DNA of 64,000 nt from Xanthobacter autotrophicus Py2 (GTDB lineage: Bacteria > Pseudomonadota > Alphaproteobacteria > Rhizobiales > Xanthobacteraceae): contig CP000781.1 in the NCBI GenBank assembly GCA_000017645.1, positions 558,001 to 622,000 of the forward strand, given 5' to 3'. A model generated the notes under the pieces. The model ran no database searches. It worked only from the letters and a program-made list of their open reading frames with translations, and was not told the DNA's origin. Positions 4,317 to 59,431 of the stretch are shown here, one piece after another. Every line of letters starts with the position of its first letter. Position 1 is the stretch's first letter. The translations under genes and the position numbers were made by a program.

Positions 4317-4341
4317 TCTGAACCGGCGTCCCTGACGCCAG

Positions 4342-5239: not shown

Positions 5240-5256
5240 CAGGCCCGCCCCGCCGG

Positions 5257-5910: not shown

Positions 5911-6172
5911 GGCTGCCTCCATGATGTGACCATGATTGGGGAACAACGCTCTCGCCGCCCCTTCCGTTGCAGCGGCGGATGCGAAAGGGGCGGCCCGCCA
6001 TTCACGTTTCAGAGTGGCCTTGACCGGTAGAGTTCCGCTGCACCAGTCTGGCGCACCGGGATCGGCACGCCAGCCTCGACTTGCCGACCTTGACTTGCCG
6101 ACCCGGCGCAGGCAGCTTCCGGCCCCGTGGGCGGCGCCGGCAACGGGCCTCCTCCAACCTTTACGGACCCTC

Positions 6173-7126: not shown

Positions 7127-7318
7127 CCATGAGCGCATGGCCGGCGGCCGCTGCCGGCCCGGCATCTCATCTTGGCCGCATTTGCCTTATTTTCTCGAAG
7201 CCTGTTCAGGCGGTAGCACCAACGCTCCGCACGGCTGGCGATGACGCTAACGCATCGTCAAGGGGAAGGGGCTAACCCTGTCGGTCCATGTGGCCGATAC
7301 GGACCCAGGAGTTGCGCG

Positions 7319-8671: not shown

Positions 8672-8804
8672 GCCTCCTGCCTCCAGCATCAGCCTGGTTG
8701 TGGCCATGGCCCTTGTGGCGGCCGCCTGGCCGCAGCTAGGCTTGCGCATGGGGCGCGTCTGCCCAGTCCGTAGCCGCGCCTTGGCCCCGGGGGAGGGCAG
8801 GGGA

Positions 8805-9458: not shown

Positions 9459-9607
9459 ACCCTATGGCTGGGACCGAGGCTTGCGGGGCAGCCTATCCGG
9501 CGCGGGCCAGAGGACGGCACATGAGCGCGGCGCCCAAGCCGCCCAAAGGTCCGCCCTATGCCCGCCCCATGGCCCGCCCCGTGTAGGGCGGCCACTGGTA
9601 TCCTGCC

Positions 9608-29539: not shown

Positions 29540-29616
29540 GCACCCGTAGCTCAGCTGGATAGAGCGCCGCCCTCCGAAGGCGGAGGCCACACGTTCGAAT
29601 CGTGTCGGGTGCGCCA
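29540..29616 (+). tRNA. tRNA-Arg (anticodon CCG)
   Basis: A complete cloverleaf of 77 bases with encoded CCA. Acceptor GCACCCG (29540-29546) pairs with CGGGTGC (29606-29612). The D arm contains GCTCAGCTGGATAGAGC. The anticodon stem-loop is CCGCC-CTCCGAA-GGCGG with anticodon CCG. The T arm is ACACG-TTCGAAT-CGTGT. Discriminator G and CCA follow. It lies 124 bases after the truncated tRNA-Arg half and is overlapped on the other strand by the end of a serine recombinase gene. Confidence 0.96.
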
Positions 29617-31245
29617 CTTACGAACAAAACTGGGCACTCCGGCTGGAACAGCCCCATCGCCCATAACCAGCCGTTCCAGAACGTCCTTCCTGCCGTGAAT
29701 GCGGATTTCGTGATCGTCGACCTCTACCTGGTCGATGACCGAGCGGATATAGGCGCGGCGGAAGGGGATCGGCCCATTGGCGATGTTGTCCCGCATCAGC
29801 GCCGCAAAGGCTGCGATCTTCTCTTCCGTGATCCGGGCTTCCGGTTGTAGTTCGCGCAGGACGCGCTCATGCGCCGTCCGGGCATTGTCCCGCTCGGCCT
29901 TGAGCGTCGCCAGACGCTCCTTGAGCGTCGGATCGGCGACATCGGCGACACCATTCTCGATCGCCTCGTAGAGGCGAGACAGGCGCGAATCGCAATCAGC
30001 GACCTTGTTCTGCAAGGCTGATAGCCGTTGTGCGTGATCCGCGCTGCGCGCCGCCTGCCGTGTCAGGAGGCCGCCGAGCAGGGCATGGATGCGCTCGGGC
30101 GTGAACAGAGACGCGCTTAACTCGCCGGTGACGGCGTTGTCGAGCTTGTCCATCGGGATCGACCGGCCCGGACAGGCGGATTTGCCCTGCTGCGCGCAGG
30201 TGGCGCAGGTGTAATAGCGGTAGCGGCCCGACTTGCCGGTCCGCAAGGTCATTCCGCCGCCGCAGGTCGCGCAGGTGGCGAGCCCGGTCAGCAAAATGGG
30301 TCCGGTGACGACGCGCGGGGCCACCGTCTTCGGGTTGCGTGACTTCAGACGCGCCTGCACGGCGTCGAAGACTGCGGGCTCGACGATCGGCTCGACGGGG
30401 ACCAGAATCTGCTCGGCGGCGGGCTTCTCTTCGCGCGTCTTCCAGACTTTGCGGTTGAAGCGGTACTCGCCCTTATAGGTCGTGCTGGTCAGAAGCTTAT
30501 GAAGCGGACCGATGCCCCAGCGCGCGCCGCGGCGGGTCCGGTAGCCATGCTCATTCAGATGGCAGGTCAAGGCTTTGACGCCCATCGGGCCGGACGTGCC
30601 GTTGCCCTTGTGCGCCAGCCGGAACATCAGACGGACGACTTCGGCTTCGACGGGGTCGATGGTGAGGCGCTTCTTGGTCTTGGCGCCGCGCTGTTCGGCA
30701 GCGGTGACAGCATAGCCGTAGGGTGCCGCCGAACCATTCCAGAAGCCCTGCCGGGCATTCTCCTGCATGGCGCGCAGAACGTGCTTGGCGTTTTCCTTCG
30801 ACTGGTATTCGTCGAAGAGCGCAAAGACCTGCCGGACCATGACGCTCATCGGATCATCACCCAGGTCCTGGGTGATGCTGACCAGCCGGACGCCATGCTT
30901 TCGTAGGCGCCGCACATGATATTCCAGCGCGAAATGGTCCCGCGCAAAGCGGCTGAAGGAATGCACGACGACGACATCGAACGGCGCGTCGTCCGCCGCC
31001 GCAAGATCGAGAAGCCGCTGTAGCTCGGGGCGCCGGTCATCCGTGCCGCTCAGGCCGGCATCGACGAATTCAATGACGACCTGCCAGCCCTTGGCCTTGC
31101 AGAAGGCCTCCGTCTGGCGGCGCTGATCGGGAATCGACAGATCGCTTTCCGCCTGCCGCCCGGTGGAAACGCGCAGGTACAGCGCGGCGCGCAGGCCCAC
31201 GTCGCCCGATGCCTGTTCCAAAGAGGTACGCTCGAGAAGGTTCAT
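29551..31245 (-). CDS. Large serine recombinase (site-specific integrase)
   Basis: A 564-residue recombinase. Order: N-terminal resolvase catalytic domain with the nucleophile Ser in YLRVSTGRQ (about residue 28) and FSRFARD; the Recombinase domain (AAPYGYAV to [18 protein letters not shown]); a zinc ribbon [20 protein letters not shown] then [14 protein letters not shown]; a coiled-coil segment around 400-470. The stop codon lies inside the tRNA-Arg gene, so its last residues ([12 protein letters not shown]) are read from tRNA antisense. This suggests the gene end was made by insertion at the tRNA. It overlaps the upstream small gene by ATGA. Probably catalyses integration or excision of this region. 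Confidence 0.9.
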
Positions 31246-32537: not shown

Positions 32538-32585
32538 ATTTTGTTCTTTATTTGTTCCTCATGTTGCTATAAATACAATTATATA

Positions 32586-33809
32586 ATGGCAGACATCAGA
32601 AAAAGAGCGGGAGCCAAAGGCGCAACATATCAGGTTCGGTATGTTGTCAACGCCGGTCGCGGATATTCCTATGCCAGCTTTCGGACCCTGAAAGAGGCCC
32701 GCGCCTTCTCCGAAAATCTGGGCTCGCTCGTCGCGGCCCCTGATAGTGGCGTCGTCAGCGTCGCAGACGCGGTGGACCGCTGGCTTGCCATTTGCGAGAG
32801 GACGGGGCGTGACGGACGAGAAAAGGTGGAAGCCGAGACCTACAAGGAATACGCGCGGCGCGCAAAGGTCATGAAAGAATATTCATGGGCGAAACTTCTG
32901 CATGAGCTTGTCCCGCCTGATATCGTCGCCTTCCGGACGTGGCTGCTGGAAAACAAGACGCGCGATCTTGCCCGGCGCGCTCTGTCGTCCTTTCACTCCG
33001 TGCTCATCGAGATGAAGCGCGAAGGCCGGCTGACGACCGATCCCGCCGCTGGCGTCACCATCAAGGCCGGAGGACGTTACGAGGACGAGGACGGCGAGGT
33101 CGAAATACCGACCGACGATGAGGTGCGGGCCATCTATGCCGCAGCTGACAGACTCGCCACGAAGAACGCCTATATGGCGGAGCGTTGGGCCCGCTATCGC
33201 CCGCTGGTCTATCTCGCCGGATTCACGGGTATGCGTCCATCCGAGTATCGCGGGTTGTCGTGGAAGCAGATCGGCGGCGACCACATTCGCGTAACTCAGC
33301 GCGCCGACAAGACTGGCCAGATCGGGCCGGTCAAATCCCGTGCCGGGCGCCGGACGCTCTACATTCCATCCTTTCTTGCCGAAATGCTGGAGGTCTGGCG
33401 TTCCGAATGCGCGGCCTCAGCTCTTGATCTGGTATTTCCGACGTCATCCGGTCAGCCTATGGCGCTGGTCAATTTCAGGGCGGGCGGCTGGGACCCGCTC
33501 ATGAAGGAGGCGTGCCTGGTGGATCGGATCGAGCGTGACGGAAAACAGATCGATGTTCCGCGCTACACACCCTATGCCCTGCGGCACTACTTCGCGTCAA
33601 AGCTGATCGAGGGTGGGTACGATCTGAAGTTCATCCAGCAGGCGATGGGACATTCCAAGATCGAAATCACGTTCAATGTTTATGGCCACCTCATCCGCGG
33701 CCGGGAAGACCATCACCGGCAAAGCGCGGAAAAACTGGCCCATCAGATACTGGGGCCCGTCGCGCGTTGTGGCGAATTTGTGGCAAATTCTCTGGAAGCC
33801 CCAGAATAG
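32586..33809 (+). CDS. Tyrosine recombinase (phage-type integrase)
   Basis: A 407-residue site-specific recombinase. The N-terminal arm-binding-like segment (MADIRKRAGAKGATYQVRYV) is followed by a SAM-like core-binding domain (SVADAVDRWLAICERTG) and the catalytic domain. Catalytic residues are visible: Arg in FTGMRPSEYRGLSW, His-x-x-Arg region ALRHYFASKLIE, His in MGHSKIEIT and the nucleophile Tyr in FNVYGHL. ATG 32586 is chosen; the longer frame to 32541 has an unlikely Cys-rich start. Immediately downstream is a 48-nt copy of the tRNA-Gly(UCC) 3' end, its probable attachment site. Confidence 0.93.
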   Translation: MADIRKRAGAKGATYQVRYVVNAGRGYSYASFRTLKEARAFSENLGSLVAAPDSGVVSVADAVDRWLAICERTGRDGREKVEAETYKEYARRAKVMKEYSWAKLLHELVPPDIVAFRTWLLENKTRDLARRALSSFHSVLIEMKREGRLTTDPAAGVTIKAGGRYEDEDGEVEIPTDDEVRAIYAAADRLATKNAYMAERWARYRPLVYLAGFTGMRPSEYRGLSWKQIGGDHIRVTQRADKTGQIGPVKSRAGRRTLYIPSFLAEMLEVWRSECAASALDLVFPTSSGQPMALVNFRAGGWDPLMKEACLVDRIERDGKQIDVPRYTPYALRHYFASKLIEGGYDLKFIQQAMGHSKIEITFNVYGHLIRGREDHHRQSAEKLAHQILGPVARCGEFVANSLEAPE

Positions 33810-35719: not shown

Positions 35720-36448
35720 ATGCCGGCCCACAACGAAACCCCGCGGCAGGACATCTACAGCCGCATCACCAACCAGATCATCGAAGCCCTGGAACAGGGC
35801 GTGAAACCCTGGACCCAACCCTGGAACGCCGCTCACGCCGCCGGTCACGTCTCCCGGCCCCTGCGCCATAACGGCGAGCCCTATGCGGGCATCAACGTCC
35901 TGACGCTCTGGGCGTCCGCCATGTCCGGCCACTACACCGCGCCGATCTGGATGACCTTCCGGCAGGCCATCGAACTGGGCGGCTGCGTCCGCAAGGGCGA
36001 GAAGGGCTCCCCGGTCGTCTACGCCAACGCCATCCGCCGTACCGAAACCGACGAGGCGACCGGCGACGATGTGGAGCGCAGCATCCCCTTTCTGAAGGCC
36101 TACACCGTCTTCAACGTCGAGCAGATTGACGGCCTGCCGGAGCGCGTTCACGCCTCGGCGCAACCCGCCGACAATCCCGCGCAGCGTATCGCCCATGCCG
36201 AAACCTTCTTCGCCGCCACGGGCGCTGATATCCGCCATGGCGGGGACAGCGCCTATTACAGCCCGGCCCTGGACTATATCCAGATGCCGCCCTTCGAAGC
36301 CTTCCGCGATGCGGAGGGTTACTACGCAACGCTCGCCCATGAGGCGACGCACTGGACCCGGCACGCAACGCGCCTTGACCGCGACCTCGGGCGCAAGCGC
36401 TTCGGCGATGCGGGCTACGCCCGCGAGGAACTGGTCGCCTTATCTTGA
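35720..36448 (+). pseudogene. ardC: ArdC-type antirestriction protein, 5' part (gene split by transposon)
   Basis: ArdC proteins protect incoming conjugative DNA from host restriction. Here residues 1-240 are ArdC: the N-terminal ssDNA-binding domain (RQDIYSRITNQIIEALEQGVKPW, GINVLTLWASA, GEKGSPVVYAN, YTVFNVEQIDGLP), then the zincin-type domain with the HEATH zinc motif at 207-211. After EELVA at 36439 the frame enters the transposon and stops after two more codons. The missing 64 residues (ELGAAFLCADLGL...) are found intact at 43269-43463, so the original gene encoded 304 residues, the normal ArdC length. The 242-residue product may be inactive. Confidence 0.92.
36434..36439. repeat. Direct repeat GTCGCC, left flank of transposon
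   Basis: Six bases identical to 43263-43268. One copy belongs to the original ardC codons; the pair flanks the inserted element and is a target duplication or the crossover core of the tyrosine recombinases. Confidence 0.8.
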
Positions 36449-36453
36449 CAGTC
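36440..36453 (+). repeat. Left terminal inverted repeat of the transposon
   Basis: TTATCTTGACAGTC; matches the reverse complement of the right end at 12 of 14 positions, including the run TGACAGTC. Confidence 0.85.
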
Positions 36454-36508
36454 TGCACCGATTGCCAGTGTGCTGCTGATGTCGATGCAACAGGACTGAC
36501 GGAGGCGT

Positions 36509-36561
36509 TATCCAGGCCGGCCGCAGCGCTCCCACATAGCTGGCGGAGGCCGGCCTGGATA
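36509..36561. repeat. Subterminal 14-bp inverted repeat
   Basis: TATCCAGGCCGGCC (36509-36522) and its exact complement GGCCGGCCTGGATA (36548-36561) with a 25-nt spacer. It lies between the left terminus and the first recombinase gene. It could bind a recombinase or form a hairpin that limits read-through from ardC. Confidence 0.65.
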
Positions 36562-36635
36562 GCGCCGGGCAAGTTGAACTCCTTCGTTGATGCTGGGCTC
36601 CCCGGAAGGGGGTCGGGGGGAAGGTTGAACAACTT

Positions 36636-38030
36636 GTGGACATTGTAATCGCAGCTCTAAGCATTACGATTCAGGAGCGCAGATCAGCGGATGGCGTTGA
36701 TGCCCATGTCCCGATGATCCTCCAGGACGGGGCGCTATACGATCCTGCTCTGGATCGCTTTTTTCGCGATCTTCCTCTCAACGGCGTTCGCTCACGCCAT
36801 TCCCTTCGTGCCTATGGCTACGATGTTTTGGTCTGGGCTCGTTTTCTTTCGGAAGCCTGCGCCAAGACGATATGGCAAGCCGACCGGCATGACGTCCTTG
36901 CCTATCATCGCGTCCGCCGCCGCGCCGACGCGGGACAACGCATTTCCGCTGCGTCCTGGAATCGCGCCGTTGCCTGTCTCGATCGGCTATATCGCTGGGG
37001 TGTGCAGGAAGGACTGATTGCAGAAGCACCCTTCACGCATCGCTCGGTCTGGAGGCAGGGGTACGCTGGGCGCCGGTCGCAGGTGGCAGCGCGGAACGAT
37101 GCCTATGAACCTGCCGCGCGTCGAGCGGACGTCAGTTTCGTCACGCTCGAGGACTATCGGCGCTTTCGGGATGTCGGCCTCAAGGCGCTTTTGCCTGACG
37201 GCCGCACACGCCCCGGCGCCCGCGATCGCAACGGTATCCGCAATGCGTTGTTCGCCGATCTCCTCGTGACCACAGGGCTTCGGCTGGAAGAAGCATCATC
37301 CCTCTTCACCTCCGATCTCGTTTTCGCCGATCAGCGTCCGGGCCGTCAGGTCTGGCTGGACCTGCCGGATGCCCAGACCAAGGGCGATCGCGGTCGCCAG
37401 ATCCTCGTTCCCGCTCGACTGCTCGAACAGGTGCGCGCCTATGTCGATGTCGAGCGTGCTCATGCCATCACGAAGTTTCAGCAGCGGTCAGGATGGCAGT
37501 CGATCGACCGTCCGATCTTCGTTCATCGCGAGCGGCACGCGGCCCGGCTGCGACTGCTGGACGGTGGGGATATCGCTCTCGATCTGCTCGACCCCGAGGA
37601 ACGTTGCCGGATTATTGTCTGCGACAGCGACGGCACGCCGAGCGAACCGGCGGCATTGTGGCTTTCGGAGGTCGGCATGCCGGTGCAGCCGAACTCGTGG
37701 GAAGTCATTTTCGCCCGCGCCTCCAGCCGGTGCCGGTCCTTCGGGTTAGATATCAACATCAGCCCGCACCAGCTCCGCCACACCTTTGCCGTTCACATGC
37801 TGGCGATGCTCATTCAGCACCGTATCCGTGACGCTGCGCTTCCTGCCGGCTCGATGGAAGGATACCGGCAGATGCTCGGTGATCCTCTCCAGCAGGTGCA
37901 ACGGCTTCTCGGCCATGCCAGCCTGACAACGACCTATATTTACCTCGACCACATAGCGACGCGCGCCGATACCGTCGATGCGGCTGTCGAGGAACTCCTT
38001 GGGCTGCTCCCTTCTGAGGCCACGCTATGA
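36636..38030 (+). CDS. Tyrosine recombinase A of the transposon trio
   Basis: A 464-residue recombinase with a full catalytic set: Arg in TGLRLEEASSL, the box II motif SPHQLRHTFAVHML, His in LLGHASLTTTY and the nucleophile Tyr in IYLDH. The N-terminal part (LRAYGYDVLVWARFLSE) is a SAM-like core-binding domain. A GTG at 36636 is used; GGAAGG lies 11 bases upstream. The stop overlaps the next start by ATGA, so the three recombinases are translated as one unit. Acts in excision and insertion of the element together with B and C. Confidence 0.88.
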   Translation: MDIVIAALSITIQERRSADGVDAHVPMILQDGALYDPALDRFFRDLPLNGVRSRHSLRAYGYDVLVWARFLSEACAKTIWQADRHDVLAYHRVRRRADAGQRISAASWNRAVACLDRLYRWGVQEGLIAEAPFTHRSVWRQGYAGRRSQVAARNDAYEPAARRADVSFVTLEDYRRFRDVGLKALLPDGRTRPGARDRNGIRNALFADLLVTTGLRLEEASSLFTSDLVFADQRPGRQVWLDLPDAQTKGDRGRQILVPARLLEQVRAYVDVERAHAITKFQQRSGWQSIDRPIFVHRERHAARLRLLDGGDIALDLLDPEERCRIIVCDSDGTPSEPAALWLSEVGMPVQPNSWEVIFARASSRCRSFGLDINISPHQLRHTFAVHMLAMLIQHRIRDAALPAGSMEGYRQMLGDPLQQVQRLLGHASLTTTYIYLDHIATRADTVDAAVEELLGLLPSEATL

Positions 38031-39814
38031 GGAGGCGTCCGCGCAAGGGAACCTCGGTGCGCTTTGCGCCCGCCGATGGCGCAGTTCCCCCGCACGCCGG
38101 TGATCCGGTGCTCGGTCTGCGCTTCAACATCGAGGCGCGCTATGGCGGAACCGTCGAGGTTGATCTTGTCGGCGAGCGTCCGCGAGCCATCGCCGTTGCT
38201 TTCGCAGGTGCCCTCCGGCGGCAGTCCGAGCTTGGCGGATCGCTCGGCGCACGCACCACCATCAAGCAGCATCTGCAGGCTTATCTCCGGTTTTTTTCAT
38301 ATCTGCGCGAGCACTCCGCGGCCAAGACGATCACCGATCTGCGCGTAGCCGATATCGATGGGTATGAGCATTTCCTCGAAGCCGGCGGGTTGACCCCGAT
38401 CCACCGGCACACTGTTCTCGCCAAAGCCATCCTCGCTCTGCGCTCGATCGACGCCGACCAGCCTGGCCTTCTGGATGAAGGGGTTCGTCATCGGTTGAGC
38501 TACACCAGCGCACAATCGGCCGGACGATCCCGACCGCGTGACGCCTATAGCCCATTTGTCGCGCGGCAGCTTCGGGACGCTGCCCGTGGCGATATCGCCA
38601 GGATATTCCGGCGGATCGGGAAGCCGCTCGATGAAGACGACAACTATCCCAACCTTCGCAGAGTGACCGATGAGGCTAATGCCCGGATCGTCGCCTCCGG
38701 CAGGCTCAGCAGTGGGGACCGCGCGTTCAAGAGCCTCTATTTCATGAGGCTGCGGCGCGGTCTTCCAGTCTCGAACCTGGCTGAGGATCTGCACGCATGT
38801 TTCCATCTGCGAGCAATGGATATTCCGCCTCTACTGACCTTCATGTCACTGGAGACCGGCCTTGAGATCGAGTGCTGCAAAGCGTTGACGATCGACTGCC
38901 TTCAGAACCCCGGACCCGGCACGATCGAGATCGCCTATGTGAAGCGCCGTGCCCGCGGCGCTGAGCACAAACGCATTCGCGTCCGTGACGGCGGGATCGG
39001 AACACCGGGCGGTCTGATCCGTAAGCTGATCGAGGCAACGGCATTCACACGGCAGTTCGTGCCGAGCGAGAACCTTTGGCTCTATTACTACACCGGGCGG
39101 AAGCAGCTTCGCGCAGGTCTGGAGCATCAGCAGGAACTCGTAGCCAGATGGATAAAGGGGCATGATCTCGTTGATGACGATGGTGAGCCGCTCCGCCTCG
39201 TTCTTTCCCGTTTGCGCAAGACCCACAAGGCGCTCTGGTATCTGAAGACCGAGGGCCACATGGCCCGTTTCGCTATCGGCCATACGCCAGAGATCGCCGC
39301 TCGCCACTACGCGGATATCCCTTCGCTGCGGCCGCTGCACGAAGCCACCATTGCCGACGCATTTTCGGAGGTCGTGACAGCGGCCGCCCCGATTATTCTG
39401 GCACCTGCTGATGAAGAGTCCTGGCGGCAATGCGATGCAGCGCCTGAAGAGCATGAGGAACGCGACAGTATCCTGCGTGGCGAGCAGGACGTTTGGCTGG
39501 CGGCATGCTCTGGTTTTGATCGTAGTCCCTTCGGGGCGCCGGGGGCACCTTGCCCGCAACCGTTCTGGGGCTGTCTGGAGTGCCGCAATGCGGTCATCAC
39601 CGCGCGCAAGCTGCCAGCGATCATCGCGTTCCAGCAGTTTATCGAGGAGCAACGGGCCAGTCTTTCCGCCTCAGACTGGGCGATGAAGTTTGGCCGCGCC
39701 CATGCTCGCATTGCCGGGCAGGTTCTGCCGGCATTTCCCGAGAGCATGGTTGCCGCAGCCCGCCGTGAGGCGGAAGTGCATGCGCTTTATCTGCCGCCGG
39801 AGGCCCGGCAATGA
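38027..39814 (+). CDS. Tyrosine recombinase B of the transposon trio
   Basis: A 595-residue protein with a SAM-like N-terminal region (TTIKQHLQAYLRFFSYLREH) and a divergent catalytic domain. His and Tyr are visible in IGHTPEIAARHYADI near residue 425. Where box I normally carries Arg the sequence reads ETGLEIECCKALTID, with Glu in place of Arg, so catalysis may be weak or provided by partners. A Cys-rich patch follows near residues 500-525 (CSGFDRSPFGAPGAPCPQPF, CLECRN), possibly metal-binding. It overlaps both neighbours by ATGA. Confidence 0.82.
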   Translation: MRRRPRKGTSVRFAPADGAVPPHAGDPVLGLRFNIEARYGGTVEVDLVGERPRAIAVAFAGALRRQSELGGSLGARTTIKQHLQAYLRFFSYLREHSAAKTITDLRVADIDGYEHFLEAGGLTPIHRHTVLAKAILALRSIDADQPGLLDEGVRHRLSYTSAQSAGRSRPRDAYSPFVARQLRDAARGDIARIFRRIGKPLDEDDNYPNLRRVTDEANARIVASGRLSSGDRAFKSLYFMRLRRGLPVSNLAEDLHACFHLRAMDIPPLLTFMSLETGLEIECCKALTIDCLQNPGPGTIEIAYVKRRARGAEHKRIRVRDGGIGTPGGLIRKLIEATAFTRQFVPSENLWLYYYTGRKQLRAGLEHQQELVARWIKGHDLVDDDGEPLRLVLSRLRKTHKALWYLKTEGHMARFAIGHTPEIAARHYADIPSLRPLHEATIADAFSEVVTAAAPIILAPADEESWRQCDAAPEEHEERDSILRGEQDVWLAACSGFDRSPFGAPGAPCPQPFWGCLECRNAVITARKLPAIIAFQQFIEEQRASLSASDWAMKFGRAHARIAGQVLPAFPESMVAAARREAEVHALYLPPEARQ

Positions 39815-41985
39815 AGGGATTGTCGCCAGCAGATTCCAACTTCCGGCAACTCGATCAGCGCCCGGTTCTTGCAACCGCTCCGTTGAAGCCTGGGTTTGAT
39901 CGGGATTCCCTCTCTCGCTACGGCGATCCAAGCTGGGATCTTGGACCGGCCGTGTTTCGTGAGAACGCCCGCCGCTGTCACGTCACCGTGCATTTCACGT
40001 CGGTCGAGGACGTGGGTGTCCGCGAGGCACTGCGCGAACTTCTCTATGCCCGGCTCAACGTCGATCTGCCCGGTCACCGCAAGATACTTCCTCCAGGAAG
40101 CGTCCGGCAGATGTTCAACCGCGCGCGGCGCTTCTTCGATTTCGTGCGCGATGAACTTGGCGTTGTCGATCTACACCGGGTCGACCAGTCCCTTCTGGAC
40201 CGATATGCCCGCCATCTCAGGGATGATCGTACCCGTCGCCCGATCATCGTCGCTCACTTGCTGGAGATCCCTTTCGACCTCCATGTCTTGCGGGATTATC
40301 TTCCCTCTGGCGGCCTGGCATTCCAACCTTGGGCCGGACGCGCACCTGCGCGCGTCGCGGGCTATCGTCACGTTCGTGAGAACCGGACGCCGCGTATTCC
40401 TGAACCAATCATATCCCCGCTGCTGTCCTGGTCGATCCGGTACATCACCGAGTTTGCTGCCGATATCTTCACGGCCCGCGAGGAGATGGATTGTCTCGAA
40501 GCGCATCGCGCCATGCTTATCGAGCGGGACAGCACCCTCGACCGTCATGGCCGACGGCGCGAGCAGCGCAACCGGCTTGAGGATTATTTCGCCCGGCTTC
40601 GCAGTGAAGGTCGCGGGGTTCCGATCTGGGGCACCGCCCATAATGGCACCTTTCTCCGGCACCCGGCGACGGGGGAGTTGTCGCCACCTGTCAACGCCCA
40701 CCTGATTCATCTGCATATCGGCATCGACACGCAAGTCGATCCGAAGATGCACATTCAACTCGCGGGTGGTGCTCCACGCGAGATCAGAGCTGCCGTGCTT
40801 GAACTCGGTGTCGAGACCGGCGGTATGGATACGCTGATCGCCATTCTGCCCGAGACCGGTAAGCCCTGGCGGCCTCGTTTCGACGCCAAGACTCTCGCGG
40901 CGGAAGAGCGCATGCTGCAATCGGCGGCCTATATCGTCTGCGCCTATCTGACCGGCATGCGGGACTGCGAAGTCCAGGCGATGCAGCGTGGGTGTCTTTC
41001 CCTGGCGCGCAGCGAAGACGGCATGATCATGCGCCACCGCGTGCGATCCGTCGCTTATAAAGGCAAGTCCGCCCGGGGTGAGCCTGCCGAGTGGGTCACC
41101 ATCGAACCTGTCGCCAGAGCTGTCGAGGTTCTGGAACGCCTGTCGTTCCGAGCCGCATCCGCCCGTGGGCTGCCAACACTCTGGCCGGTACTCGCTGCCA
41201 AAACGGTTTGCAAGGACCACCTCTCCGCCGAGATCGTCCGTCAACTCAATCACTTCCGCGACCACCTCAACGACCTGTTCGGCACCCCGGACACGCCGGC
41301 GGTCCCTAATGGGCCTGGTGATCAGCCTTGGCGGATCACGACACGCCAGTTCAGGCGCACGATTGCATGGCACATCGCCAACCGTCCGTTCGGCACCATC
41401 GCCGGCATGATCCAGTACAAGCATGCCTCCGTCGCGGCGTTCGAAGGTTATGCCGGCTCCAGCCGATCCGGCTTTCGGGCCGAAGTCGAGAGCCAGCGTA
41501 GTCTCGGCCAGCTCGATGACCTGTTGATCTATTTCGACGAGCGGCAGGCCGGGGCCAAGCTGTCCGGGCCTGCGGCGGCACGTATCGCGAAGACGCTCGA
41601 CAGCGTATCGGACCATCTCGGACCGCTTCCGGCCATGATCGCTGATCGTGCCCGACTGCGAACCATGCTCGCGAGCCTCGCACGGACCTTGCATGTCGGC
41701 GTGCTGGCCGATTGCTTCTTCGATCCCGGCACGGCCGTCTGCCTGAAGCAGGCCACCGGAGCCAAAGGTCCGCTGACCGCACTCTGCCAGCCGACCCTCT
41801 GCCCAAATGCCTGCATCACCTCCATGCACCGGCCAGCATGGGCGCGGTCCGCGCAGGAGGCCGCAGACCTGTTGAAGGAGAAGCGGCTGTCCACGCTTCA
41901 ACGAAGCATCCTTCAGCAGAATCTTGATCGAGCGAAGACGGTCCTCGACAGCATAGACAGGGACCAGTCCGCGCCCGGCTCCTGA
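39811..41985 (+). CDS. Tyrosine recombinase C of the transposon trio
   Basis: A 724-residue recombinase. The catalytic domain at about residues 360-560 has Arg in TGMRDCEVQAM, the box II region TTRQFRRTIAWHIAN, His in YKHASVAAF and a likely nucleophile Tyr in EGYAG. The C-terminal 150 residues include Cys-containing segments (DCFFDPGTAVCLKQ, CQPTLCPNACITSMHRPAW) that look like a metal-binding extension. It starts within an ATGA overlap with recombinase B. The large C-terminal extension is typical of the biggest member of such trios. Confidence 0.85.
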   Translation: MKGLSPADSNFRQLDQRPVLATAPLKPGFDRDSLSRYGDPSWDLGPAVFRENARRCHVTVHFTSVEDVGVREALRELLYARLNVDLPGHRKILPPGSVRQMFNRARRFFDFVRDELGVVDLHRVDQSLLDRYARHLRDDRTRRPIIVAHLLEIPFDLHVLRDYLPSGGLAFQPWAGRAPARVAGYRHVRENRTPRIPEPIISPLLSWSIRYITEFAADIFTAREEMDCLEAHRAMLIERDSTLDRHGRRREQRNRLEDYFARLRSEGRGVPIWGTAHNGTFLRHPATGELSPPVNAHLIHLHIGIDTQVDPKMHIQLAGGAPREIRAAVLELGVETGGMDTLIAILPETGKPWRPRFDAKTLAAEERMLQSAAYIVCAYLTGMRDCEVQAMQRGCLSLARSEDGMIMRHRVRSVAYKGKSARGEPAEWVTIEPVARAVEVLERLSFRAASARGLPTLWPVLAAKTVCKDHLSAEIVRQLNHFRDHLNDLFGTPDTPAVPNGPGDQPWRITTRQFRRTIAWHIANRPFGTIAGMIQYKHASVAAFEGYAGSSRSGFRAEVESQRSLGQLDDLLIYFDERQAGAKLSGPAAARIAKTLDSVSDHLGPLPAMIADRARLRTMLASLARTLHVGVLADCFFDPGTAVCLKQATGAKGPLTALCQPTLCPNACITSMHRPAWARSAQEAADLLKEKRLSTLQRSILQQNLDRAKTVLDSIDRDQSAPGS

Positions 41986-42303
41986 GGGGATCTGGGTGCT
42001 CCTTCGCCGGTGGCCCGCCCGGCGTGCTCGGAGCGCGCGATGCCCGACGCATCCGCGCAACGGCTGACGCCGTCCTCCGCTCGCGCTTCGGCTCTGCGAG
42101 TGCGCGGCCGCGCCTGAGACATCGCAATCCGCTGCTCCGACGCCGGGACAGGCCCCGGCGGAGAAGGAGCAACAATCATGACAAGACAAAAAATCAGGAA
42201 CAGCCGCCCGAACGGGCGGCAGGAGAGGAAGAGGACGGCCGGAGTCGGGCGGTCGGTTGAAGGGGCGAGAGAGGCTCGCGCCGCCGGCTGCGGAGATTCC
42301 ACA
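41986..42303. promoter_or_regulatory. Leader of the passenger ArdC gene
   Basis: Between recombinase C and the passenger ArdC gene. An ATG at 42178 preceded by GAGAAGGAG opens an in-frame Arg-rich extension of 42 residues to the ArdC start at 42304; it may be the true start or a leader. The GC-rich sequence before it (CCGCCCGGCGTGC at about 42016) resembles only weakly the shared leader of other element genes. Confidence 0.35.
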
Positions 42304-43206
42304 ATGAGGAATACCTCGTCATCCGTCCAGCGCGCCGACGTCTATTCCCGCGTCACCGCAGAGATCATCGCCGCCATCGAACAAGGTGCTGGCGAATGGC
42401 GTGCGCCCTGGTTCCACAACGGGTCCAGCATCGCGCGCCCGACCAACATCTCCTCTGGCAAGCGCTATCGCGGCATAAACACGCTGGCGCTCTGGGCCGC
42501 GGGCTTCGCCGCCGGATATGGCGATGGCCTCTGGGGCACCTACAAGCAATGGCAGGATGCCGGTGCGCAGGTGCGGGAGGGAGAGCGCTCCACCACAGTG
42601 GTGTTGTGGCGGGAGATTCAAGCTTCCCGGCAGGCCGACAAAGATGACGATGATGACGACCATCGCCGGATGTTCGCCCGCGCATTTTCTGTCTTCAACA
42701 TAGCGCAGGTGGACGGGTACGAGCGCCCGGCGACTCCTGTGCTACCAGAGGGCGAACGTCTCGCTCATGCGGAAGCATTCATCGCAAACCTGGGCGTCAA
42801 GACTGAGTTCGGCGGGTCGGAAGCCTATTACCGTCCATCGGCCGACACCGTGTTCATGCCGCCGTTTACCTCCTTCCGCGACGCCGCATCATTCTACGGT
42901 GTGTGGCTGCACGAGAACGGCCATGCCAGTGGCGCAAAGCACAGGCTCGACCGCGATCTTTCCGGCCGCTTCGGATCGGCGGCCTATGCCGCCGAAGAAT
43001 GCTGCGTGGAAATTCTCAGCGGGCTCGTGCTGGCTGATCTGGGAATCGCACACCATCCGCGCCCCGACCACGCCGCCTATGTTGCCTCGTGGCTCAAGGT
43101 CCTGAAGGACGATCCCAAGGCCATCTTCACGGCCGCCAGCAAGGCGCAGCAGGCAGCCGACTGGATGCACGCCCAGCAGCCCCAGGCAGAGGAGATGGCA
43201 GCATGA
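42304..43206 (+). CDS. ArdC-type antirestriction protein carried by the transposon
   Basis: A 300-residue complete ArdC homologue, diverged from the split copy. N-terminal ssDNA-binding domain: RADVYSRVTAEIIAAIEQGAGEW, YRGINTLALWAAGFAAGYGD, VREGERSTTVVLWREI, AFSVFNIAQVDGYE. Metallopeptidase-like domain: YGVWLHENGHASGAKHRLDRDL with the HENGH zinc motif, AAYAAEECCVEILSGLVLADLGI, and the C-terminal helix DPKAIFTAASKAQQAADWM. GGAG lies eight bases before ATG 42304; a longer start at 42178 is possible. It ends by ATGA overlap with the fused ORF 43203-43463. It lies inside the transposon and may replace the gene the insertion destroyed. Confidence 0.88.
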   Translation: MRNTSSSVQRADVYSRVTAEIIAAIEQGAGEWRAPWFHNGSSIARPTNISSGKRYRGINTLALWAAGFAAGYGDGLWGTYKQWQDAGAQVREGERSTTVVLWREIQASRQADKDDDDDDHRRMFARAFSVFNIAQVDGYERPATPVLPEGERLAHAEAFIANLGVKTEFGGSEAYYRPSADTVFMPPFTSFRDAASFYGVWLHENGHASGAKHRLDRDLSGRFGSAAYAAEECCVEILSGLVLADLGIAHHPRPDHAAYVASWLKVLKDDPKAIFTAASKAQQAADWMHAQQPQAEEMAA

Positions 43207-43248
43207 CTAGGTCCGTCTTGACTGCGGAAAAATTTCAGATTGGGGCTG

Positions 43249-43262
43249 GACTGTCAGGATAT
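43249..43262 (-). repeat. Right terminal inverted repeat of the transposon
   Basis: GACTGTCAGGATAT; its reverse complement matches the left end at 12 of 14 positions. Confidence 0.85.
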
Positions 43263-43268
43263 GTCGCC
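43263..43268. repeat. Direct repeat GTCGCC, right flank of transposon
   Basis: Six bases identical to 36434-36439. Joining left ardC through its copy to the codon after this copy restores the reading frame with no change. Confidence 0.8.
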
Positions 43269-43492
43269 GAACTGGGCGCCGCCTTCCTTTGCGCCGATCT
43301 GGGCCTTCGGCTGGAAGACCGGACCGATCATGCCGCCTATATCGGCCACTGGCTGGCCGTCCTGACGGAAGACAAGCGGGCCATCTTTGCCGCTGCCGCC
43401 CACGCCCAGCGTGCCGCCAGCTATCTCGGGCAGTTCAGCGCCCCTTCCGAGGCCGCCGCATAGGCGGCCTCTCCCTTTTGCCGGCCCGGTTT

Positions 43493-45136: not shown

Positions 45137-45518
45137 AACCCCGGAGCAGCGCAAACGCGCCGAGCGCCACAGGCAGTTCCTGGAGGCGGCGGATATCGGC
45201 GATGCCGTCCGGGTGCAAAAGTTCCTTGATAGCGGCGGAATCGACGTCAATCATGCCCAGCCCCGCACCGGGCTCACGGCCCTGCACATAGCCGCTGCCC
45301 GCAATGCCGTCGCGGTGGTTCGCATTCTCGCGGCTTCCGGGCTCTGCGATCCCGCGCTGAAAGACGCGCAAGGGCGCACCGCGGCGACGCTGGCGGTGAC
45401 GGTTGCGCGCAACCCCGCGCTGGGGCGCTATCTTGCCGACCTCCAATACAAAACCGGCGTGGCCGCGGTGCAGCGCGCCGGCCAGTCCGGAAAGCTCACG
45501 GGTCAGGGCGAGGCATAA
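45126..45518 (+). CDS. Ankyrin-repeat protein
   Basis: A 130-residue protein with about three ankyrin repeats: EAADIGDAVRVQKFLDSGG, TGLTALHIAAARNAVAVVRI and QGRTAATLAVTVARNPALG. Ankyrin repeats mediate protein binding. No signal or membrane segment. It overlaps the preceding hypothetical gene by 11 bases and its 3' end overlaps the convergent coupling-protein gene by 16. In this context it may be an inhibitor or partner of the upstream protein; that is inference from gene order. Confidence 0.8.
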   Translation: MPGETPEQRKRAERHRQFLEAADIGDAVRVQKFLDSGGIDVNHAQPRTGLTALHIAAARNAVAVVRILAASGLCDPALKDAQGRTAATLAVTVARNPALGRYLADLQYKTGVAAVQRAGQSGKLTGQGEA

Positions 45519-47032
45519 GTTCCCCGGAACCACCCATGGACCGGACTCCATTGGTTGAAATACTCGACCCTTTGCAGCATCAGCGGATTGTAACCCGCCC
45601 ACAGCACCAGCTGCCGCTTCAGCCGGTCGCCGCGCGCGAACTGCCGGCTGACCTCGTCCGGCGTCAGCAGGTCAAATTGTTCAATCGATTCCGAGCGGCC
45701 CGTAATGCCCGAAACCCGCTGATCGGTGCCGGCCTCGCTCTCGCGCGTGACCTTCACAATAGTCTTGCCAAGGCGCTTTGAGACATACTCCGTCGTCTGC
45801 AAATCGTTGTTGCCGAAAAACTGCATGATCCCGGCATTGCCGGCAAACGTCTCCCAGCGCTCCTTGTAAAGCGCCTTGCCCTGACCCCAGTCCTGTAAAA
45901 TGATCCAGAGCCTGACGCCAAAGGACGCGATCTGTCCCGCCGCGTCCTCGATCTGGCGCATATGCCCCAGCACCGGGAATTCATCGAGGCAGGCGAGGAC
46001 CGGGCAGGCCACGGGCGTCCGCTCCCGTTCCATCGCCTCCAGCAGCAGGTTGATGAACAGCCGCAGCCACCGGCTGCACAGCCCCATGCGGCTCGCCGGC
46101 AGGCACAGATAGACCGTCATGCCGCCCTTCGTCGTCTTCAGCTCCGACAGGTCGAAATCATGGCCCTCCAGCACCCGGGCCATCGCGCTGAAATCGAACA
46201 GCTTGGTATGGCGGCGCGCCGTCGACAGCACGCTCGCCCGCTCATTCGCCGGGCGTTCATAGAAATCCCGGGCCGACCGCTCAAGGATATGCCCCAGATG
46301 GGCCGTCTCCGGCGCACGCTGCAACCGCGCGGCATTGCTCAGCATCGCATATTCAAGGACGAACGGATCATCCTCCTCATCGCCCGTGGTCTTCAGCGCC
46401 TCACCCAGCAGATCACGCAGCGCGATCAGGTTGCGCCGTCCTTCCAGCGCCGGGGCCGTCGCCATGTGCAGCAGCAACCCCTCGATCAGCACGCGGGCGC
46501 TTTCATCCCAGTGCGGGTCCCGCCCGCCCGCAATCACCAGCGCGTCCGATATCAGCCCCGCATTCTCGATCACCGTCTCCCCGGCGGGATCGAGCAGCAT
46601 CAGCGGATTGAAACTGACCCGATACCGGGCCAGCCGTTCCGGCACGATGTTGAAGGGATCGAGGATGCACACTTTCTGGCCCAGCGCCGCCCGGCGCTCC
46701 GCCGTGATCGCCGCCAGCTCGCCCTTCGGATCAAGCGCCAGCACGCTGCCGGGATAGAACAGCAGGTTATTGACCACCGTCACCGACTTGCCGGTGCGCG
46801 ATCCCGCCACCGTCATGACGTGACGGTTATCGTCAATGCCGATCAGCCGGTCGCCGATGGCGCCGACCAGGATTTTGCCGCCGGGGTTGTTGGGGTCGTA
46901 GGCCATCGCCCGGCTGGCGCAGATTTTATCGACCGGCTCCCACCGCGCCTGCGGCACCGCTTGCTGGTGAAGGAATCGGGACGTGACACCGCGCGCCACG
47001 TCTCGCGTGAAATCGTCATTGAAGGCCGCCAT
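45503..47032 (-). CDS. Type IV secretion coupling protein (TraG/VirD4-like ATPase)
   Basis: A 509-residue ATPase that would bring relaxase-bound DNA to a conjugation channel. Motifs: Walker A AGSRTGKSVTVV near residue 80, then LALDPKGELAA, Walker B VLACLDEFPVLGH near residue 365, and a C-terminal FFGNNDLQTTEYVSKRLG typical of TraG/VirD4. The usual two N-terminal membrane helices are not present from the ATG at 47032; the frame is open to 47398 but that part reads back through the resolvase gene and has no membrane segment either. No trb/virB pore genes lie in the window. Confidence 0.87.
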   Translation of the reverse strand: MAAFNDDFTRDVARGVTSRFLHQQAVPQARWEPVDKICASRAMAYDPNNPGGKILVGAIGDRLIGIDDNRHVMTVAGSRTGKSVTVVNNLLFYPGSVLALDPKGELAAITAERRAALGQKVCILDPFNIVPERLARYRVSFNPLMLLDPAGETVIENAGLISDALVIAGGRDPHWDESARVLIEGLLLHMATAPALEGRRNLIALRDLLGEALKTTGDEEDDPFVLEYAMLSNAARLQRAPETAHLGHILERSARDFYERPANERASVLSTARRHTKLFDFSAMARVLEGHDFDLSELKTTKGGMTVYLCLPASRMGLCSRWLRLFINLLLEAMERERTPVACPVLACLDEFPVLGHMRQIEDAAGQIASFGVRLWIILQDWGQGKALYKERWETFAGNAGIMQFFGNNDLQTTEYVSKRLGKTIVKVTRESEAGTDQRVSGITGRSESIEQFDLLTPDEVSRQFARGDRLKRQLVLWAGYNPLMLQRVEYFNQWSPVHGWFRGTYASP

Positions 47033-47231
47033 GGCGCTGATCCCCACAGGTCGTATGCGGGAATCATAGACAAGGCATGATAGGCTCGATCTCGCGGATT
47101 CCTCGCGGGTAGCCGTTGTGATGGTTGGGGCGCGTCCCCTTACGGGACCAGGCTCTAGGCTTCGCCCCGAGCCCTGCGTTGCCTTCGGCGGAGCAGGGTC
47201 TCGGCCATCCGGTGACGATCCTTCGCGCGGA

Positions 47232-47843
47232 TCAGCGCGCCTCGTCCCGCCTCGCGGCGCGGTCAGACTTTGCGCTGGCGAAAATAGCGCAAGCCGGTTC
47301 GCCCAGCAGCCGCCGCAGCGTTGTCCGGGTAACGCCGCAAGCGGCAGCAACGCTCGTGACGGTCCGGCCGCTGGCGATAAGGTTGCGGGCATCGGCAATC
47401 TGCGCCGGGCTCAGCTTGCGCGGCCGGCCCATGACCACGCCGCGGCTGCGGGCGGCGTCCAACCCCGCGCGCGTCCGGTCCCGGATCAGCTCGCGCTCGA
47501 ATTCAGCCAGCGCCGCCAGCATGTGCAGGTAGAAGCGGCCCGCGGCGCTGGTCGTGTCGATCTGCTCTTGCAGCGACAGGAAGCCGATGCCGCGCTGCTG
47601 CAATTGCCCGACGATGTCTATCAAATCCTTGATCGACCGCCCCAGGCGGTCGAGACGCCAAACGACCAAAACGTCGCCCGCGCGCGCTGTTTTCAGCGCC
47701 CGGCGCAGGCCGGGGCGGATCACCATCGCGCCCGAAACGCCGCTGTCCTCGTGGAGCCGCTGGCATCCCGCCGCTATTAGCGCCTGCCTTTGGAGGTCGA
47801 GATTTTGGTCGCCGGTGGAAACGCGGGCGTAGCCGATCAGCAT
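47232..47843 (-). CDS. Resolvase/invertase-type serine recombinase
   Basis: A 203-residue small serine recombinase. The catalytic domain has the nucleophile Ser in IGYARVSTGDQNLDLQ, then LVVWRLDRLGRS, the E-helix region (GRFYLHMLAALAEFERELI) and a C-terminal helix-turn-helix (RTVTSVAAACGVTRTTLRRLL). This is the Tn3-resolvase/DNA-invertase architecture. It lies 199 bases upstream of the coupling-protein gene on the same strand. It may resolve multimers of the excised element or be a remnant of another transposon; no terminal repeats were found nearby. Confidence 0.92.
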   Translation of the reverse strand: MLIGYARVSTGDQNLDLQRQALIAAGCQRLHEDSGVSGAMVIRPGLRRALKTARAGDVLVVWRLDRLGRSIKDLIDIVGQLQQRGIGFLSLQEQIDTTSAAGRFYLHMLAALAEFERELIRDRTRAGLDAARSRGVVMGRPRKLSPAQIADARNLIASGRTVTSVAAACGVTRTTLRRLLGEPACAIFASAKSDRAARRDEAR

Positions 47844-52478: not shown

Positions 52479-52808
52479 ATGACGGAGAAGAGCAAACGTG
52501 AAGCCCCGATATCCTACCGCCCCCCGCAGGAACTGCGGGCGCAATTCCGGGCGCGGGTCGAGGAATCGGGGCTCTCCGTCAATGCCTTCATCACCGCCGC
52601 CGTGTTCGGCGAGGACGCGCCCGCACCGGCCCGGCGCGTGTCGGCATCGCGGGCCGATATAGCCCGCCTGCTGGCCCAGACCGCGCTGCTGGGCGCGCAG
52701 CTGAAAGGGCTGGGGCCGGATGCCGATGACGCTCTGGTCGCCGAGGCTATTCGCGACCTCCATGAAATCCGCGCCGCCTGCCTCAAGACGTTGGGACGCT
52801 CGCCATGA
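52479..52808 (+). CDS. MobC-like relaxosome accessory protein
   Basis: A 109-residue protein, MTEKSKREAPISYRPPQELR, with an N-terminal ribbon-helix-helix-like part (FRARVEESGLSVNAFITAAVFG) and a helical C-terminus (ADIARLLAQTALLGAQLKGLG). This is the plan of MobC and similar accessory proteins that bind oriT and help the relaxase. The ATG at 52479 is selected; the longer frame to 52164 crosses the hairpin region. It overlaps the relaxase start by ATGA. Confidence 0.78.
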   Translation: MTEKSKREAPISYRPPQELRAQFRARVEESGLSVNAFITAAVFGEDAPAPARRVSASRADIARLLAQTALLGAQLKGLGPDADDALVAEAIRDLHEIRAACLKTLGRSP

Positions 52809-54493
52809 TCCCCAAGGCGAGCCAGCGCGGCGGCGGCCAGGACCTCGCCACCCATCTGCTGAACGCCTTCGACAATGAATATGTCGAAGTGGCCGAGGTC
52901 TCGGGCGCGATTGCGCCGGATTTGCACGGGGCCTTCGCCGAATGGGAGGCCGTCGCCCACGGGCTGACCCGCTGCCGCAATTATCTCTACAGCCTGTCGA
53001 TCAACCCGGACCCCGAGCATGGCCCCTTAAGCCGCGACCAGTATCGCGCCTATGCCGACCGCGTGGAAAAGGCGCTCGGCTTGGAGGGGCAGCCCCGGGC
53101 CTTGGTGTTCCACATCAAGGACGGCCGCGAGCATTGCCATGTCGTCTGGTCCCGGATCGACTACCAGACCGAGAAGGCCGTCCACATCGCCTTCGACCGC
53201 GAAAAGCTCATGATGGTGACCCGGGAGTTCGCCCGCGAACACGGTCTCGCGCTGCCAAAGGGCTATGGGCCGGAGCGCTCTGACGAGCCGCGCCGGAAGG
53301 CGTCGGCCTATGAACGGGCGCAGGAACGCGCGACCGGCCTGTCCAAGGAAGAGCGCATGGTCATGGTCACGCAGGCCTGGCGCCAGAGCGACAGCCCGCG
53401 TGCCTTCGTCCGCGCGCTGGAGGACATGGGTTACATCCTCGCCACCGGCAACCGGCCCTATGTCCTGGTCGATATCTACGGCGCCATGAACGCGCTGCCG
53501 AAGCTGATCGACGATCGCGCGGTCCGCACGAAGGACATTCGCGCGTTTCTGAGCAAGGCGTTTCCGCCGGAGTCGCTGCCGACGGTGGACGAGGCGCGCG
53601 CCCTGGCGGCGCAGCACCGCAAAGCCCGGGAGCAGTTCGCCAAGGCCCGTGATGACGGCAGGCAGCGCGAACAACTCGCCCGGGCCCAGGCCGTCCGCCG
53701 TGAAAAGCTCATCGTCGAGCAGGCCGCGAAACGCGCGCGGCAGGAAGAGGAGCGGCGCGCTCTTGCCCGGCAGCAATTAGCGGAGCGGCAATATCAGCGC
53801 GGGCAGTATCTGGCCGAGGTCTCCCGCATCCGGCAGCGGCGAGCGGAGGCGCGGCCCACCGGGCTTGCCGCCTTCCTGGGGCGGGTGACCGGCGTCAGCG
53901 CTGTGATCCGGCAGGTACATCGCTATCAGGATGCCCGCCGCTATCTCGCCTTCCGGAATGAGAAGCGCGCGCTTACCGCCCGGCAGGGGCACGAGGTCGC
54001 GGACCTGGAGCGGCGCCACGCCATGCAGGCGCTCGACATGGCACGCCATGTCAAAGCGCTCGATACAGTGGACGCCCGCGAACGAAAGGCGCTGGAGGAG
54101 CGGCGCGTCCGCGAGCAGCGCGCGCAGGATCGCGGCAGCGCGCAGCACATGCCGGCTCTTTCGCTGGACCTCAAGCCGCGCGGGCGGGGCGCATCGGTAC
54201 GCAAGGCCAAGAACCGGCATCAGGACACTTTGCGCGGACGCGAGGATCGTTTGCCCCGCGGGCCGGCTGTGCCAGGCCTGAAAGAAGATATGGCTCGCGC
54301 CGCCCAGCCGCCGCCCGGACGGGAAGAGGCGGTTGACCTGCGTAGCGCCTTCGCGCAGGCCGCCGATGACGGGCGCGGTGATGGCGGTGATGGCGGAGAC
54401 GATGGCCGCATCACGGTCACGCGCGCGACGCGCCGTGGCGAGCGGGAGCGGACACGAGGCCGCAAACGCGGCGATTTCGAGCGGGAGCGGTAG
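52805..54493 (+). CDS. Relaxase/mobilisation nuclease
   Basis: A 562-residue HUH-type relaxase that would nick oriT and bind the 5' end covalently. The N-terminal catalytic domain (about 1-165) has MIPKASQRGGGQDLATHLLN, NYLYSLSINPD and the metal-binding His motif VFHIKDGREHCHVVWSRID. The middle has a helix-rich region (ERMVMVTQAWRQSDSPRAFVRALEDMGYIL), and the C-terminal half is a long Arg/Gln/Glu-rich coiled coil (QREQLARAQAVRREKLIVEQ). It is the main evidence that this region is transferable. The MOB subclass cannot be fixed by eye. Coupled to the MobC-like gene by ATGA. Confidence 0.88.
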   Translation: MIPKASQRGGGQDLATHLLNAFDNEYVEVAEVSGAIAPDLHGAFAEWEAVAHGLTRCRNYLYSLSINPDPEHGPLSRDQYRAYADRVEKALGLEGQPRALVFHIKDGREHCHVVWSRIDYQTEKAVHIAFDREKLMMVTREFAREHGLALPKGYGPERSDEPRRKASAYERAQERATGLSKEERMVMVTQAWRQSDSPRAFVRALEDMGYILATGNRPYVLVDIYGAMNALPKLIDDRAVRTKDIRAFLSKAFPPESLPTVDEARALAAQHRKAREQFAKARDDGRQREQLARAQAVRREKLIVEQAAKRARQEEERRALARQQLAERQYQRGQYLAEVSRIRQRRAEARPTGLAAFLGRVTGVSAVIRQVHRYQDARRYLAFRNEKRALTARQGHEVADLERRHAMQALDMARHVKALDTVDARERKALEERRVREQRAQDRGSAQHMPALSLDLKPRGRGASVRKAKNRHQDTLRGREDRLPRGPAVPGLKEDMARAAQPPPGREEAVDLRSAFAQAADDGRGDGGDGGDDGRITVTRATRRGERERTRGRKRGDFERER

Positions 54494-54960: not shown

Positions 54961-55167
54961 ATGAAATCCCTCTCGGCGCGCGAAGCCAAGAATGAGTTCG
55001 GACGACTCATCGACTTGGCGCGGGCAGAACCCGTGACGATCGAGAAACACGGTCGACCCGTCGTCGTCGTCATGTCGGTAGAAGAGTACGAGCGCCTGAC
55101 AGTCGCGGACTCCGCGCGCCAGGCACATGGGGAACCGGGCAAGGGGGTCGCCAGTGAGTCTGACTGA
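54961..55167 (+). CDS. Phd/YefM-family antitoxin, no toxin partner
   Basis: A 68-residue protein with the complete Phd/YefM DNA-binding fold (MKSLSAREAKNEFGRLIDLA, EPVTIEKHGRPVVVVMSVEEYERL) and a short C-terminal tail of the type that wraps a toxin. No toxin gene lies next to it: its 3' end overlaps the start of a methyltransferase gene. It may act as repressor of the restriction operon or as a leftover antitoxin. Confidence 0.87.
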   Translation: MKSLSAREAKNEFGRLIDLARAEPVTIEKHGRPVVVVMSVEEYERLTVADSARQAHGEPGKGVASESD

Positions 55168-59418: not shown

Positions 59419-59431
59419 CGGGGGGAACGAC

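Follow-up and report, generated by a model that had tools for sequence, protein, structure and literature searches.

Site-specific transposons that split ardC genes at a fixed codon and mostly carry a whole ardC gene of their own

What has split an ardC gene of Xanthobacter autotrophicus Py2, and what is the second, whole ardC gene inside the insert doing there? The locus lies in a 64,000-nucleotide window (the whole stretch of DNA analyzed; contig CP000781.1, positions 558,001 to 622,000; coordinates below are those of the window), in which the original prediction, made from the sequence alone, had recognized a mobile element with three recombinase genes inside ardC. We conclude from comparison with its relatives that the insert is a member of a real, well-defined family of site-specific transposons.

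The target gene is broken after codon 240, leaving remnants at 35720-36439 and 43269-43463. Its left frame closes in ...YAREELVA, followed by an element-encoded L-S-stop (36440-36448), and the C terminus picks up in phase at 43269, so that 240 + 64 codons make 304. This reconstruction, already proposed, matches an intact homologue of 304 amino acids (aa) on Sinorhizobium meliloti pSymB (L158), which reads EELVAELG with the hexamer GTCGCC and is 81% and 78% identical in DNA to the two window flanks. GTCGCC stands at 36434-36439 and again at 43263-43268. The element ends, TTATCTTGACAGTC and, with the right end reversed, ATATCCTGACAGTC, bear out the predicted 14-bp inverted repeats; they are imperfect, identical at 12/14 positions. 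The borders given before, 36434 and 43268, are right to the base, with the amendment that the element proper is narrower (36440-43262) and the hexamers lie outside it. The parts are as follows.

35720-36439, plus strand: N-terminal part of the target ardC, 240 codons, with the ArdcN domain (PF08401, 4.6e-44) and the start of MPTase-PolyVal (PF18818, positions 2-82 of 126)
36439, plus strand: cut point in the target ardC, directly after the ExxA motif (EELVA)
36434-36439, plus strand: left hexamer GTCGCC (V-A codons), regarded as belonging to the target gene (L158 has the same hexamer, and left hexamers track the flanking gene)
36440-43262, plus strand: element proper, 6,823 bp
36440-36453, plus strand: left terminal repeat, TTATCTTGACAGTC
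43249-43262, minus strand: right terminal repeat, ATATCCTGACAGTC (minus-strand reading)
43263-43268, plus strand: right hexamer GTCGCC, donor derived by the comparative hexamer rule set out below, an inference for the window copy, whose two hexamers are equal
43269-43463, plus strand: C-terminal part of the broken ardC (64 codons plus the stop), continuing the left frame in phase

A search of the same genome (5.6 Mb, 2 contigs) found two further copies with 0 differences over 6,823 bp. Each of the three identical copies interrupts a different ardC gene, always at the same codon; thus, the split in the window is not a chance event, and the mobile element that had been postulated is borne out. 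A fourth, diverged element of 12,716 bp, whose largest recombinase (protein C, described below) is 46% identical, occupies the same codon of a fourth ardC (L012/L218). Its hexamers are GTCGCT on the left and CGCGCC on the right, and it was excluded from all border and hexamer counts. The genome holds eight ArdcN genes, four split targets and four full-length cargo genes.

The search for copies elsewhere, proposed with the original prediction, also returned many from other genomes. Genome loci were chosen by alignment of protein C alone, keeping the 80 best of 218 relatives, and have no bias to ardC; the query for plasmid loci, by contrast, included ∼240 bp from either ardC flank, which biases those loci to ardC. 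Right-hand ardC pieces had been located with an ArdC C-terminal profile. Among the 80 genome loci, readable left borders were EE-x-[VI]-A in 50/50 and readable right borders x-A-[ED] in 48/48. In the full table of 105 loci (own, plasmid, and genome), 75 left borders were readable: 70 were EE-x-[VI]-A, 2 were DELVA, 1 was EELRA, 1 had a 1-bp indel (L025), and 1 lay in another gene (L131). Seven contigs start precisely at the left end of the element, as expected of collapsed repeats. All 73 elements with both ends, a set from which L131 was excluded, measure 5.7 to 11.1 kb; the diverged own copy has 12.7 kb. The same ends and recombinase trio thus recur in other genomes, and ardC without an insert exists in L158, contrary to both outcomes that had been named with the original prediction as refuting it. 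As judged from these borders, the element inserts in ardC between fixed codons (EEL|VA|E) and in one orientation.

Targets turn up in many separate places on the ardC tree (17 label changes among 41 clusters). Compared base by base, targets and background ardC genes showed no difference (p < 0.01) within 10 bp of the hexamer, and the element appears to take the best-conserved part of ardC unaltered. In R388 ArdC, the metal ligands are H201, H205, and E229, the last lying in the second protease-class signature (E,H)xx(A,F,T,S,G), as described in PMC7213743; by our own reading of the alignment, the insertion hexamer would encode the last two residues of this ExxA metalloprotease motif. Hosts among the titled loci are mostly Alphaproteobacteria, with a Bacillota metagenome-assembled genome (MAG; L080) and a Microbacterium MAG (L067) as exceptions by title. 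Few genomes of a broad sample contain the exact left end (3/385 and 2/397), and protein C was found in 17/296 genomes of the family of X. autotrophicus (E 0.001; own genome included in all these counts), some of the matches being remote (25 to 29%).

Three open reading frames (ORFs) follow the left end.

36636-38030, plus strand: recombinase A, 464 aa, XerC/D-like tyrosine recombinase; R216, K249, H378, R381, H427, and Y436 present; start codon uncertain
38027-39814, plus strand: recombinase-fold protein B, 595 aa; Glu for the box-I Arg; R397, H419, and Y428 present
39811-41985, plus strand: recombinase C, large, 724 aa; R384, R515/R516, H538, and Y547 present; Arg for the box-II His

They overlap at 38027-38030 and 39811-39814, by ATGA both times. 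The claim of three overlapping recombinases thus holds for the trio and its overlaps and needs correction for B, which by its alignment is a degenerate recombinase: across 42 aligned relatives, the box-I Arg column holds Glu 40 times and Asn twice. Arg stands one column before this position in 2/42 relatives, Y428 is kept in 42/42, and the predicted model of B is recombinase-like (mean predicted local distance difference test [pLDDT] score of 70). A matches tyrosine-recombinase families, and its catalytic set is complete in 7/7 aligned proteins. In C, R384, R515, H538, and Y547 are present in 15/15 and the box-II His column is Arg in 14/15. No Pfam transposase family was matched by A, B, C, or the cargo ArdC.

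Behind the trio lies the cargo gene.

42304-43206, plus strand: cargo ardC, full length, 300 aa; EECCVE stands where the target has its motif; start most likely at 42304, in a frame that is open from 42178

Its product is homologous to the crystallized ArdC 6I89 (E 2.5e-50). A full-length ArdC frame (at least 306 codons from stop to stop) lies inside 66 of the 73 both-ended elements. At the place where targets are cut, the 88 resolved cargo proteins read EEATAE (38), EECCVE (26), EEICAE (12), EELTAE (5), EEACAE (3), EELVAE (2), EECSVE (1), and EECLVE (1), so that a [VI]A motif occurs in 2/88 cargo versus 51/57 resolved background ArdC proteins. The motif was unresolved in 2/59 background matches and in 76/164 cargo-side fragments, many of which are right pieces of targets or cut-off cargo; background loci were those with the best Pfam scores and may undersample other subfamilies. 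EELRAE, EELCAE, and EELTAE each occur twice among the 57 background motifs. EECCVE is common in database relatives of the cargo ArdC, taken irrespective of genomic context. On the ArdC tree (midpoint rooted, with some branches long and bootstrap support not settled), cargo proteins form two clades: the EECCVE clade falls among database relatives, and the second holds no sampled target or background sequence. Given these motif and tree results with their sampling limits, we hold it likely, with moderate confidence, that the cargo ArdC is a spare for the broken one; that it is also a nontarget for the element is suggestive only.

Could the cargo ArdC be a passenger only, picked up by elements that take up plasmid genes and simply have ardC nearby? 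This is possible though rather doubtful. Other cargo exists (L027, L037, L040, and L102) or is lacking altogether (L048), and cargo ArdC requires just two changes on the tree. Mere proximity sits poorly, however, with full-length ArdC in 66/73 elements and in two lineages, one of them without any sampled target or background sequence. The other cargo comprises two hypothetical genes in L027, L037, and L040 (next to C in L027 and L040), an ArsR-like and cation-efflux-like set with insertion sequence genes in L102 (4541-14791, read from ORFs by eye), and merBA mercury genes in L134 (3550-13400).

How the element moves may be read from its two hexamers, which were compared in 61 insertions (omitting L025 with its 1-bp indel, L131 with its other target, and L037, the same insertion as L027). 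Left and right hexamers are equal in 16/61. In the copy on pNL1 of Novosphingobium aromaticivorans DSM 12444 (L022), for instance, GTGGCA stands on the left and GTCGCC on the right. The left hexamer tracks the flanking gene, being shared in 11/14 pairs whose left flanks are ≥90% identical; the right hexamer does not, being shared in 3/17 pairs with right flanks ≥90% identical (Fisher p 0.001, a guide only, since the pairs overlap and are not independent). L067, L083, L151, and L156 have identical 180-bp right flanks and four different right hexamers. Instead, 9/18 right hexamers recur as the left hexamer of a sister copy elsewhere in the genome, with 2.8 expected (P 0.0003 to 0.0006); Tardibacter provides an example with CGGGCC and Sphingobium 15-1 one with GTAGCG. 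This test covered seven multicopy genomes, leaving out DEHP117, for which there were no right borders, and a Roseovarius pair in which every hexamer is GTCGCG; copies in the seven are identical where both ends are comparable, with one mismatch in Primorskyibacter. Because hexamers mostly differ, only the left one follows the target gene, and the right one often matches the left of a sister copy, the GTCGCC pair, present on both sides as first described, is probably not a target-site duplication. The own-genome hexamers allow the order C2:203k, C1:3.37M, window copy. The same 6-bp rule was found experimentally for SE-6945 and SE-6283, which are strand-biased circularizing integrative elements (SEs), according to PMC9345347 and PMC10214605; the latter also states it for Tn554-related elements.

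Paired hexamers could also come from a cut-and-paste transposon with a 6-bp target duplication, scrambled later by homologous recombination between copies that swapped right flanks. Consistent with this, equal hexamers exceed the shuffled mean of 6.9 (P 0.00015), and L150/L152 (CFD-2) and L154/L155 (Tardibacter) form reciprocal pairs. Yet duplication would make the hexamer a native part of the right flank too, where we found 3/17 shared and four hexamers on four identical flanks. The excess resides in 13 insertions (9/13), grouped by hand after inspection of the table (mostly Rhodobacterales, a Henriciella MAG, and two MAG contigs); elsewhere, equality is at chance (7/48, with 5.6 expected). 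Moreover, A matches tyrosine-recombinase families, the B model resembles them, and transposase matches are lacking. Such duplication is therefore very improbable. The equal-hexamer loci of the hand-made group are L048, L068, L085, L089, L090, L098, L099, L148, and L149.

Slightly less probable still is phage-type integration and excision, or that of an integrative and conjugative element (ICE), acting as a reversible switch that restores ardC with either hexamer keeping the frame: precise loss across a spacer of exactly two codons would restore full-length ArdC, and the odd background motifs and the L155 hexamer could be scars, but SEs with the same hexamer rule are reported to leave no empty site (PMC10214605).

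We thus favor, as very probable, a site-specific transposon moving in the manner of SEs and Tn554; insertion and hexamer rule are drawn from comparison, and we infer the circle and the compensation. In this model, A and C, aided by the degenerate B, would make a circle that carries the donor left hexamer between the terminal repeats, and the circle would be joined to the hexamer in a new ardC; as the hexamer amounts to exactly two codons, the exchange would keep phase. The cargo ArdC would then replace the truncated protein, so that the plasmid or island keeps antirestriction, and the cargo copy, without the target motif in nearly all elements, would be a poor target for the element itself.

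Several observations weigh against this account. Neither a circle nor excision nor transposition was observed. C lacks the box-II His in 14/15 proteins and B the box-I Arg. The excess of equal hexamers, its concentration in the 13 insertions, and the reciprocal pairs count here as well, and L155 and L154, with 95% identity between their left flanks, differ in the left hexamer (an odd CGGGCC in L155, GTCGCC in L154). Hexamers coding for neither V nor I in first place are far more frequent on the right (11/73) than on the left (1/74; p 0.002), an excess that plain copying from donor left to recipient right would leave unexplained. As to the cargo, 7/73 elements show no ArdC, L051 and L080 carry EELVAE cargo, and, with cargo in two clades, the motif contrast rests on few independent lineages. 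Finally, on the Ti plasmid pTi_CFBP5505 (L131), a copy with the same ends lies in a small non-ardC ORF (REELKA|RAELRN); the target may therefore be ardC-like DNA and not the ardC gene as such.

The L131 element spans 3564-12008, and its C protein is 59% identical. Right hexamers coding for C-A, T-A, and R-A are frequent, such left hexamers are almost absent, and putative donors were not seen among the loci; TGCGCC stands on the right in L061, L092, L097, and L103, and R-A codons in L033, L151, L154, and L218.

To what known system, then, does the family come closest? The original prediction held that it does not match the common types, and by gene content it is indeed not RIT, Tn554, or GInt; the closest published kind, which the prediction did not name, is the SE. 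As described for SE-6283/Tn6283 and SE-6945 (PMC10214605, PMC9345347, PMC5991714), SEs share with our elements the gene order (ordinary recombinase, degenerate recombinase-fold protein, large recombinase), site preference, imperfect inverted terminal repeats (13 to 19 bp there), and a native left hexamer with a right one from the donor, which here is known by comparison only. SE-6283, which inserts in bcp, brings along a homologue of that gene "as if it complements" it (PMC9345347, PMC5991714). There are also differences. The SE core is intA, tfp, intB, and srap, and the window element has no fourth gene: no plus-strand ORF of ≥80 aa lies between C and the cargo ardC. In L048, 246 bp separate C from the right end, again without a fourth gene; L027 and L040 have a 193-aa ORF directly after C, and the distant relatives L134, L135, and L136 have a fourth gene of 124 to 176 aa. 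Tfp is described as a recombinase fold without the catalytic RHRY, whereas B keeps R, H, and Y; both the ordinary and the large SE recombinase have RHRY, which here is complete in A and altered in C. SE hosts are Gammaproteobacteria, unlike the mostly alphaproteobacterial hosts here, and the target here is ardC. In Alphaproteobacteria, a 2023 survey detected no Tfp/Srap homologue and no ginC-ginD block (PMC10214605), whereas the GInt paper reports gin-like operons there too (PMC5385486), so that the papers differ. The family appears to work like SEs; the likeness is drawn from gene order, ends, the hexamer rule, and published SE descriptions and does not establish SE membership.

GInt elements, as presented in PMC5385486, likewise have an operon of three integrase-like genes plus cargo, one protein without the first catalytic Arg, and proposed 6-nucleotide staggered cuts. 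There, however, the protein without this Arg is the third (GinC), not the second as here; ginABCD includes a small essential GinD without a counterpart in the window element or L048; cargo is 2.5 to 70 kb, compared with 5.7 to 11.1 kb for whole elements here; and the targets named are an ABC-transporter gene, ssb, and a ribonucleotide-reductase gene. Tn554 (tnpA, tnpB, and tnpC) has TnpC and, by the same accounts, no counterpart of B (PMC3414803, PMC10214605); the window element holds no gene of TnpC size. RITs share three overlapping recombinase genes, but their archetype has proteins of 315 to 410 aa and ∼3.5 kb in total (PMC3414803, PMC10214605), versus 464, 595, and 724 aa and 6.8 kb with ArdC cargo here. 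The recA-mobile elements of Vibrio cholerae also interrupt a host gene and bring a diverged homologue of it, but are described as ICEs (PMC5991714). With these and SE-6283/bcp as precedents, break-and-replace is not new in principle; in the titles and abstracts of the open-licence literature searched, there was no ardC-specific element of this kind.

The SE comparison raises a further idea, which we think improbable: that the cargo ArdC, more than a spare, works within the transposition machinery itself. ArdC binds single-stranded DNA and has a Spartan-like metalloprotease domain, and a metal-ligand mutant still supported conjugation into Pseudomonas putida, as reported in PMC7213743; the SE model, as given in PMC10214605, requires removal of the DNA-bound covalent recombinase before copy-out. 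ArdC occupies the place of the fourth core gene and so could bind the single-stranded bridge or digest a stuck recombinase. If this were true, targeting ardC would mean targeting plasmids that already supply the helper.

The genes near the target ardC are as follows.

29551-31245: large serine recombinase, near the integrase
32541-33809: tyrosine integrase
45503-47398: type IV coupling protein
52805-54493: relaxase
55127-62104: restriction-type genes in a row, a methyltransferase with a type III-like match, a GmrSD type IV-like enzyme, and a ResIII helicase protein

These surroundings would fit a mobile island, and the serine recombinase may mark another border of a mobile element. A second type of element seems to disrupt the N-terminal half of ardC in sphingomonad plasmids: reverse-transcriptase/maturase ORFs lie immediately upstream of ardC remnants in L022 (323-2619), L150 (1-784, annotated as group II intron type), L151 (1-724), L152 (1-322), and L153 (1-566).

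The family extends the apparent SE mode of movement, in which 6 bp pass from the donor left to the right of the new site, to a three-gene element in Alphaproteobacteria. Each insertion keeps a two-codon record of its source copy, so that the order of transposition may be readable from finished genomes. The element seems to be a parasite that breaks a gene and replaces it, and its copies offer a large natural data set on this apparent combination, for a gene that affects plasmid entry into restricting hosts.

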